A DNA stretch of 32,610 nucleotides from an uncultured Saprospiraceae bacterium (GTDB taxonomy: Bacteria > Bacteroidota > Bacteroidia > Chitinophagales > Saprospiraceae): assembly GCA_938010715.1 (NCBI GenBank), contig CALLVG010000144.1:1-32610 (forward strand), written 5' to 3'. The translations under genes and the position numbers were made by a program. The stretch's first letter is position 1. Every line of letters starts with the position of its first letter. The notes under the pieces were generated by a model. That model did no database searches. It worked only from the letters and a program-made list of their open reading frames with translations, and was not told where the DNA came from. This document shows positions 28,893 to 32,482 of the stretch, piece after piece.

Positions 28893-30920
28893 ATGCGAGT
28901 ATTTAGAAACATAAATGATTTACCCGAATTCGAAAATGCGGTCTTGACCATCGGGTCATTTGACGGTGTACACAATGGACATCGGGCACTTTTGAAGAAG
29001 GTCAAGTCTTTGGCACAAAAGGTTGATGGTGAGGTAGTTATCATCACATTTCATCCTCATCCACGTCAAATCATCTATCCAAAAGATAATACTTTAAGGC
29101 TACTCAACTCGATTGAGGAAAAGATTCAATTATTTGAAAAAATTGGGGTGGACAATCTGGTGATTGTTCCGTTCTCCATCCAATTTTCTCAACAACCCGC
29201 AGATGAATATGTAGAGAAATTTTTAGTAGAAAAATTCCACCCGAAAATTGTGGTGGTCGGTTTTGATCATAAATTTGGATTGAATCGCCAAGGTGATATA
29301 AATTACCTCAAACATCATGGAAAAATTCATGGATTTGAAGTTGAAGAAATTCAGAAACAAACGCTTTCTGATTTAAAAATAAGTTCTACCCGAGTTCGTA
29401 ACGCACTTTTAGAAAAGAATATTGAGGAAGCGAATTCTTCATTGGGTTACAATTACATGTTGACAGGCGAAGTAATTCGCGGTTTAGAGTTGGGTTCCAA
29501 ATTAGGTTTTCCAACAGCTAATTTAAAAATATCCACTAAGCATAAATTGATTCCTCCAAATGGCGTTTATGCCGCTTATGTTTGGTATAAAAATGAACGA
29601 TATCAATCCATGTTTTATATTGGGAATCGCATGACTTTGGAGGGTCATCCTCAGCTGACTATGGAGGCCAATATTTTTGATTTTGATGATTCGATTTATG
29701 GTGAAAATATTCAGATTGAACTGGTTGAATTCATAAGAGAAGGAAAGAAATTTGATGACTTAAATGCACTCAAATCTCAACTCAAAAAAGATAAATCGAC
29801 GACTCAAAAAGCGCTCAAAACATTAGAAGAAAAACAAATAGCTGATTCAAAAAAAAAATCTGTCGCAGTCGTAATTTTAAATTATAATGGAAAGAATTAT
29901 CTCGAACAATTCTTGCCTTCTGTAGTGACAACTTCCTATTCAAAATCAAAAATAATTGTTGCAGATAATTCATCAACAGATGATTCTATTTCTTTTTTAA
30001 AAGAAAATTATCCGCAAATAGAATTACTACAACTCACTGATAATCAAGGGTATGCAGGTGGATATAATCAAGCATTAACTTTAATAGAAGGTGAATACGA
30101 TTATTATGTTTTACTAAATTCGGATATAGAGGTTACTCCAAATTGGTTGAAGCCTTTGGAGCAATTGATGTCTTCAGATTCTTCTATAGCGGCTTGCCAA
30201 CCAAAGATTCTTGCTTATCATAAAAAGACGCATTTTGAGTACGCTGGAGCGGCTGGAGGATGGATGGATTCACTCGGCTATCCATTTTGTAAAGGACGCG
30301 TTTTTGACGTAGCGGAAGAGGACAATAATCAGTACGATGAAGCCGAAGAAATCTTTTGGGCATCAGGTGCTTGTTTGGTCGTTCGAGCAGATTTATTTCA
30401 TGCTTTAGGTGGGCTTGACAATGGGTATTTTGCCCACATGGAAGAGATTGATTTTTGTTGGCGTTTGAAAAATGCGGGCTACAAAATCATGTCTTGTCCT
30501 GAGTCCATTGTTTATCATGTTGGGGGTGGAACTTTGGACTACGAAAGTCCTCGAAAAACCTATCTCAATTTCAGAAACAACCTTTACACTTTAGTGAAAA
30601 ATCAAAAGAAAAGAAAGTTACTTTGGCTCATTCCATTGCGTTTGGTTTTGGATGGATTGGCTGGAATGAAGTTTTTGATAGATGGAAAATGGAGAAATAC
30701 AATGGCCGTTATAAAAGCGCACTTTAGATTTTATGCAGCCATTCCATTGTTGTTTGCGAAACGCGCAAAGAATAGACAACGCATAAATGCAAACGTCAAT
30801 GGAACCAAATTTAACCTAACAGGTGTTTACGAGGGAAGTATCGTTTGGGATTTTTTTATAAAAAAGAAGAAAACGTTTAAAGAAATAAACCCTACTGGGA
30901 ATGAAAACCCGCCTGAATGA
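28893..30920 (+). CDS. ribF: RibF (riboflavin kinase/FAD synthetase) fused in frame to a family 2 glycosyltransferase
   Basis: RibF: LTIGSFDGVHNGHRALL, VVVGFDHKFGLNRQGD, ISSTRVRNALL, LGSKLGFPTANL, NGVYAAYV. GT2: VAVVILNYNGKNYLEQFLPSVV, ADNSSTDDSISFL, LNSDIEVTPNWL, WASGACLVVRADLF, GGLDNGYFAHMEEIDFCWRLKNAGYK. One continuous 675-codon frame. Confidence 0.9.
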   Translation: MRVFRNINDLPEFENAVLTIGSFDGVHNGHRALLKKVKSLAQKVDGEVVIITFHPHPRQIIYPKDNTLRLLNSIEEKIQLFEKIGVDNLVIVPFSIQFSQQPADEYVEKFLVEKFHPKIVVVGFDHKFGLNRQGDINYLKHHGKIHGFEVEEIQKQTLSDLKISSTRVRNALLEKNIEEANSSLGYNYMLTGEVIRGLELGSKLGFPTANLKISTKHKLIPPNGVYAAYVWYKNERYQSMFYIGNRMTLEGHPQLTMEANIFDFDDSIYGENIQIELVEFIREGKKFDDLNALKSQLKKDKSTTQKALKTLEEKQIADSKKKSVAVVILNYNGKNYLEQFLPSVVTTSYSKSKIIVADNSSTDDSISFLKENYPQIELLQLTDNQGYAGGYNQALTLIEGEYDYYVLLNSDIEVTPNWLKPLEQLMSSDSSIAACQPKILAYHKKTHFEYAGAAGGWMDSLGYPFCKGRVFDVAEEDNNQYDEAEEIFWASGACLVVRADLFHALGGLDNGYFAHMEEIDFCWRLKNAGYKIMSCPESIVYHVGGGTLDYESPRKTYLNFRNNLYTLVKNQKKRKLLWLIPLRLVLDGLAGMKFLIDGKWRNTMAVIKAHFRFYAAIPLLFAKRAKNRQRINANVNGTKFNLTGVYEGSIVWDFFIKKKKTFKEINPTGNENPPE

Positions 30921-31003: not shown

Positions 31004-31858
31004 ATGGCAAATAAAAAACAGAAACCACAAATCATATTTGAAGATGAGGCCTTAGTGGTTTTAAATAAACCGCCATTCCTTCGTGCGCTTCCAGACAGAT
31101 ATCGAGCAGACTTGCCCAATATATTGGACATGATGCGCGAAAAATATGGTGAAATTTTCATGGTTCATCGACTGGACATGGAAACGAGTGGAGCGATTAT
31201 TTTAGCTAAAACGAAAGAAGCACATAAACACCTAAATGAGCAATTCGAAGCCAGAACGGTTGATAAAAAGTATTTGACTTTGGTCGAGGGTTCTAACTTT
31301 CCAGAAGAAGGAGAAATTGATGCAGCTATCGGTTCGCACCCTACCATGAAGCGACAACGCGTAACTAAAAAAGGAAAAAAATCTGTTACGCAATATAAAT
31401 TAGTAGAAGCCTTTCAAGGGTTTGCCTTGGTGGAAGCAAAAATTCTAACTGGGAGAATGCACCAAATCAGAGTTCATTTCGAAAGTATTGGTTATCCACT
31501 CGCTGTAGATGCCGTTTATGGTCGCCGAGAAACTTTGAGCATTTCCGATATTAAAAAGGCAAAAATAAGATTTGCAAAAGGAGAAGAATCTGCCAATCCA
31601 TTAATTGAGCGCTCTACCCTACATAGTTGGAAAATTGGTTTCAAACATCCCGTTACTGGCGCTCGATTGAATTTTGAAGCGGAATTGCCGAAGGATTTTA
31701 GAGCGACGGTGAATCAGATGCGAAAGTGGAGAGGTATTGAATGTGTGAATTTTGGAATGATGGAATGTGTGAATTGGCGATCACTTATTCTTTGCAATTC
31801 GTTTTCTGAAGTATGGTCTCCAATGTTTGTAAATGTAACCTTCTTCGTTCTTTTTTAA
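31004..31858 (+). CDS. RluA-family RNA pseudouridine synthase
   Basis: MVHRLDMETSGAIILAKT (HRLDxxTSG), KKYLTLVEG, GRMHQIRVHFESIGYPLAVDAVYG. Last ~45 residues look like acquired spacer sequence. Confidence 0.92.
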   Translation: MANKKQKPQIIFEDEALVVLNKPPFLRALPDRYRADLPNILDMMREKYGEIFMVHRLDMETSGAIILAKTKEAHKHLNEQFEARTVDKKYLTLVEGSNFPEEGEIDAAIGSHPTMKRQRVTKKGKKSVTQYKLVEAFQGFALVEAKILTGRMHQIRVHFESIGYPLAVDAVYGRRETLSISDIKKAKIRFAKGEESANPLIERSTLHSWKIGFKHPVTGARLNFEAELPKDFRATVNQMRKWRGIECVNFGMMECVNWRSLILCNSFSEVWSPMFVNVTFFVLF

Positions 31859-32482
31859 ATTCCATTTCCAAAGGGAATCGCCCAAATGAATGACTAGCTC
31901 TTCTTTCGTATTTTTTTTTATATCGAAAATCTTTTCCATATTTGTAATTGTACGATCTGCTCCTTTTTTTAATTTAAAATAAACCTCATATTCACCAGGT
32001 TCCTTTATTGAAAAATAAATATTCTTATGGCCATAAGAATCATAGAAAGATAAATCTAATCTACTGTCGAAATAAATTACTTTATAGAGTTTCTTCTTTT
32101 TCCTGATATCATAATTTAATCGAAACCAAGATTCTTTAGAAGATCCATCAATTGTACAATATTTAAAAGAAGTATCTATCGGAATAAATTCAATAGAAAT
32201 CGAATCAGCAAGTTCTTTCTTTTTTATAAAATAAATGGAATCTTTTTGATCACCATATTCATCAAATTGTAAATGCAATTTTTTATTTTTAACAAAATAT
32301 TCCCCGTACCCTTCACTTGCTCCTTTGTCATCTGCAAAAAAGTAATGAAATTCTCCCGACTTTTTTAAATTCAAACAAAGATTGGAATTTTGTGGTTCTG
32401 AGCAGTGGATTCCAACAAATTTATTGGAACAGTTTGACAGCACTACCATAATTGTAAAAAGGAAAAAGTATTTAGCTTTCAT
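31781..32482 (-). CDS. Hypothetical lipoprotein
   Basis: MKAKYFFLFTIMVVLSNCSNKF lipoprotein signal; 233 aa; convergent overlap with the pseudouridine synthase ORF. Confidence 0.75.
   Translation of the reverse strand: MKAKYFFLFTIMVVLSNCSNKFVGIHCSEPQNSNLCLNLKKSGEFHYFFADDKGASEGYGEYFVKNKKLHLQFDEYGDQKDSIYFIKKKELADSISIEFIPIDTSFKYCTIDGSSKESWFRLNYDIRKKKKLYKVIYFDSRLDLSFYDSYGHKNIYFSIKEPGEYEVYFKLKKGADRTITNMEKIFDIKKNTKEELVIHLGDSLWKWNLKKNEEGYIYKHWRPYFRKRIAKNK

Follow-up and report, generated by a model that had tools for sequence, protein, structure and literature searches.

A putative adenine-tract slippage joint between RibF and a family 2 glycosyltransferase in Saprospiraceae

The 32,610-nucleotide stretch of Saprospiraceae DNA analysed here (the window) raises the question of why RibF, typically a free enzyme of about 310 aa, should be joined to a family 2 glycosyltransferase (GT2), and whether the joined protein is its only form. 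The sequence data show that neighbouring ribF and GT2 genes were joined in frame, and it is probable that, in part of the family, a joint of nine to eleven adenines (A9–A11) slips to give both RibF and RibF-GT2.

Organisation of the RibF-GT2 protein

A first-pass annotation of this DNA had proposed an in-frame fusion, and this was confirmed by the open frame at 28,893–30,920, which encodes 675 aa comprising a complete RibF, a linker of 17 residues and a complete GT2 (Table 1). Pfam placed FAD_syn at residues 13–167 (E 4e-49), Flavokinase at residues 184–307 (E 3e-38) and Glycos_transf_2 at residues 326–437 (E 3e-18). The protein scored 250.1 bits with TIGR00083 (ribF, cut-off 184.35) with its signature motifs intact, and 66.7 bits with PF00535 (cut-off 23.3) with the acidic motifs of family 2 glycosyltransferases conserved. 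Assignment of the GT2 as a rhamnosyltransferase (TIGR01556) was rejected at 54.9 bits, below the cut-off of 200.55. In an alignment of 29 fused relatives, the RibF motifs GSFDGVHxGH and GFPTANL were invariant or nearly so, the invariant residues being G21, F23, D24, G25, H27, H30, T208, A209 and N210 in RibF and N409, D411, E517, E518 and D520 in GT2.

Table 1. Features of the RibF-GT2 frame in the window
Feature	Position	Strand	Evidence
RibF part (residues 1–305), FMN adenylyltransferase and riboflavin kinase	28893..29807	+	Pfam/NCBIfam, motifs, PDB relatives 4uzf and 1mrz
Linker (residues 306–322), within predicted helix 290–319	29808..29858	+	Linker lengths, AlphaFold2 model
A10 tract, candidate slippage site	29849..29858	+	Sequence, A-run counts in fused genes, own-genome background
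TAA, 4 codons past the tract if the mRNA loses one A	29872..29874	+	Read from sequence
TAA, 9 codons past the tract if the mRNA gains one A	29885..29887	+	Read from sequence
GT2 part (residues 323–665), C-terminal helices 553–633	29859..30887	+	PF00535, Bacteroidia-wide ortholog, model

The RibF part shares with other members of its family (TIGR00083; structures 4uzf and 1mrz) the two complete domains and the conserved signature motifs, but differs in being joined to GT2 via its C-terminal helix; in the AlphaFold2 model (pLDDT 89, pTM 0.70) this predicted helix runs out of RibF into GT2. A search for a further close RibF was negative for the window's genome, and none turned up in any fused genome looked at. 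The first-pass annotation had also seen no separate start for GT2 in the linker, which likewise held, as the linker of the window contains no ATG, GTG or TTG.

Linkers in the first 96 fused genomes were 8–23 aa long. Two loci, L358 and L360 (genomes G711 and G714), have linkers of 42–78 aa, whose frame runs through DNA with repeats or inverted repeats (TVDGGRW repeats; DPTPDPSPEREGG).

Distribution and origin of the fusion

Where the first-pass annotation had left it unsettled whether related genomes carry the fusion, a homologue search across both domains found it in one frame in 90 of the 120 Saprospiraceae genomes sampled (112 genera), with no match spanning RibF and GT2 in approximately 324 Bacteroidia genomes outside the family (order and class samples). 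In the remaining Saprospiraceae genomes, ribF was followed by GT2 as a separate neighbour (22/120), the two lay apart or on different contigs (3/120) or the match was unclear (5/120). The nearest relative of the window protein in the search was from an uncultured Saprospiraceae MAG (80% identity). Literature searches gave no report of a RibF-GT2 fusion, and in a survey of gene fusions involving B vitamins, the text consulted brings up RibF solely on account of its own pair of domains (PMC4921024).

Among the separate pairs, several overlap by ATGA or a similar sequence, some are set apart by spacers reaching 1.3 kb and in one (L032) the two genes are in the same frame with a stop between them. 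As the fused or split label requires 12–14 changes on the trees, joining or splitting of ribF and GT2 has happened repeatedly. At the sequence level, ribF and a GT2 gene found phylum-wide became neighbours in Saprospiraceae and were joined in frame, giving a single polypeptide with FMN/FAD synthesis and a GT2; such juxtaposition and joining accounts for the architecture without a functional link. The link between flavin synthesis and envelope glycosylation suggested in the first-pass annotation could only be surmised from the fusion. Its suggestion of obligate co-expression fared less well, given that the genes are separate in part of the family and that the A9–A11 tracts suggest free RibF beside the fusion.

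That the A-run was miscounted during assembly and the genes are truly separate is exceedingly improbable, although homopolymers are error-prone and the genomes are largely MAGs. Most of the 185 genomes with the fusion have no long A-run, and a congener of the window (L004) is fused, at 80% identity to the window protein, with a tract of only A7; the fusion therefore did not arise from a miscount of adenines. An assembly artefact is thereby ruled out for the fusion itself.

Three further loci were noted. In L245 (G004), the ribF stop and GT2 overlap in the sequence CTGA; there is neither an ATG, GTG or TTG nor an A-run, and CTG is a possible start. Genome G560 carries two different RibF-GT2 copies (L343 and L364), which may be due to contamination. 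In another family of the order, a RibF lies within an open frame of 692 aa (G158:C20:91370-92329) and is possibly a different RibF fusion.

Adenine runs at the joint

Among the 185 fused genes, counts over which are inflated by related rows, runs of at least nine adenines were present in 31 linkers, with 32 runs over the 4,953 codons of all linkers, compared with 1 run in 117,460 codons of the RibF and GT2 domains. A shuffle of synonymous codons, in which the amino acids of each linker and the codon usage of each gene were kept, gave an expectation of 11.7 ± 2.6 linkers with such a run against the 31 observed, and of 13.8 runs in the domains against the one observed. The peptide KKK was written as at least nine adenines in 21 of 23 cases in linkers and in 0 of 26 in domains (Fisher p 6e-12), and the linker effect was also present in genes of 54–60% G+C. 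For the window's own genome, 21 contigs with 156 kb of coding sequence contained 2 runs of at least nine A or T where 29 ± 3.6 were expected, one of them being the A10 tract. A-runs at the joint are retained more than chance would predict, in coding sequence that otherwise avoids them, both across the family and in the window's own genome, which is the pattern by which slippage genes are recognised. The other run in the sampled coding sequence is an A9 near the C-terminal end of a putative lipoprotein gene (31,784–32,482, reverse strand).

A plain gene fusion, joined by chance or for dosage, with an unconstrained linker in which A-runs are harmless drift, is a rather unlikely but serious alternative. 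It is consistent with the 154 of 185 fused linkers that have no run of at least nine adenines, with the poor conservation of linker sequence and with the graded series of genes apart, adjacent, overlapping, separated by an in-frame stop and fused. It does not fit an excess of A-runs over what linker amino acids and codon usage predict in genes that avoid them elsewhere, nor GT2 genes that remain intact out of frame behind A10 (see below).

The presence of a run of at least nine adenines requires 13–19 changes on the tree, fewer than the 29 obtained with shuffled labels, indicating that the trait is both recurrent and inherited. It is kept in genera g16, g17, g21, g59 and g80, in most of g98 and in the split species of g64, and is absent from the window's congeners. 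As L004 has A7 and a further congener, L345, has no run, the A10 tract is of recent origin or unstable within this genus, and slippage may be incidental for the window's gene.

Out-of-frame species and shifted-frame stops

In six species, four of one genus (G063, G656, G641 and G485) together with G453 and G550, GT2 lies out of frame behind an A10 or A11 tract. In the five for which both parts were read (only the GT2 side was read for G641), RibF ends shortly past the tract and one additional A gives a single frame of 674–690 aa. Three of the six loci (L221, L355 and L356) have no ATG, GTG or TTG before GT2, while possible starts consist of one TTG each in L348 and L353 and a GTG in L351. The GT2 of these species is under purifying selection with dN/dS of about 0.07–0.10, and A10 persists between out-of-frame species sharing only 65% GT2 nucleotide identity. 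These sequences are largely from MAGs and can carry homopolymer errors, and the rejection of an assembly artefact does not extend to single out-of-frame cases.

A phase-variable switch was also considered, in which replication slippage would change the tract length in the DNA and so toggle GT2, with RibF made throughout. Genus g17 would suit such a switch, as one of its species carries a similar A-tract out of frame and three carry it in frame. It is nonetheless improbable, because the out-of-frame state, at one and the same length, is common to four species within a genus and tract lengths fall within a narrow range (9–11).

In eight related species (L018, L020, L246, L247, L249, L250, L252 and L260; genera g98, g21 and g2), a TGA, TAA or TAG lies directly 3′ of the tract in the frame reached by loss of one A. 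Four of them (L018, L020, L246 and L250) have an ATG at this spot, which could indicate that ribosomes load at the A-rich joint to start GT2 translation internally. The other four have ATA in its place and yet retain the shifted-frame stop; with the stop present in all eight, it is the stop that has been kept and not the possible start. Considering also that 82 of 96 linkers lack an ATG and 38 of 96 lack ATG, GTG and TTG altogether (first 96 fused genomes), and that such runs are rare at stand-alone GT2 genes, an internal start is very improbable. The A-run as a relic of a start region was also disfavoured, since at least nine adenines were seen upstream of just 2 of 111 stand-alone GT2 genes.

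Comparison with known slippage systems

Slippage is inferred here from the anatomy of the joint together with the signals of selection. RNA polymerase, or the ribosome, would slip on the A9–A11 tract in part of the Saprospiraceae, the window included. In the in-frame layout, this would give the full RibF-GT2 plus a RibF ending a few codons past the tract; in the out-of-frame layout, slippage would give the RibF-GT2 fusion instead.

Both layouts have precedents. In dnaX of Thermus, an A9 inside a single ORF, with a stop close by in each of the two alternative frames, yields full and short products at approximately 1:1 (PMC1088944, PMC5009743), and in mxiE of Shigella out-of-frame halves are joined by slippage (PMC1088944). 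The window has the anatomy of a slippage gene, with A10 in the coding frame and stops 4 and 9 codons on in the other frames, and shares with Thermus thermophilus dnaX (tau/gamma) the single ORF, a tract of A9–A10, near stops in both frames and the longer product in frame. The two differ in that dnaX encodes one replication protein, whereas here two different enzymes are joined, slippage is putative and the tract is not present in all members. The six out-of-frame species resemble mxiE in needing an extra or missing A for the long protein, although the upstream half here is a complete enzyme on its own. With the window in the dnaX layout and six species in that of mxiE, transcriptional slippage is the best explanation; sliding of ribosomes along A-runs (PMC4363877) would lead to a comparable result.

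In part of the family, the joint most likely determines how much RibF is made free and how much as RibF-GT2. The tether itself would only fix dosage and hold RibF near a membrane-associated GT2; the fusion might conceivably serve to set dosage or, via the C-terminal helices of GT2, to tether RibF at the membrane. The chances seem evenly balanced that an A-tract slippage joint, repeatedly gained and lost, makes an essential enzyme in both free and GT2-fused form, sister species doing so through in-frame and out-of-frame layouts. If true, programmed slippage would be tuning the output of a gene fusion and not of one protein, and dozens of natural replicates would be available within one family for comparison.

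The Bacteroidia-wide glycosyltransferase

The GT2 has one ortholog in nearly all Bacteroidia, with stand-alone copies aligning over their full length at approximately 45–58% identity. Unlike the fused GT2, these stand-alone copies (PF00535) are not beside ribF. No substrate assigned to this GT2 was found. It might conceivably act in a conserved envelope glycan. Enzymes building the shared O-glycan core of Bacteroidota are still unidentified (PMC12871550), with this GT2 being one candidate among others for synthesis of that core. For a GT2 that occurs almost universally in Bacteroidia, the fusion also provides a tagged handle. In Bacteroidales (L040–L112), a conserved gene order was observed, consisting of a GWxTD-type gene, an acyltransferase-like gene and the stand-alone GT2, followed by an AroQ-like gene on the other strand; these neighbour labels were read by eye, with one match annotated as a lysophospholipid acyltransferase.
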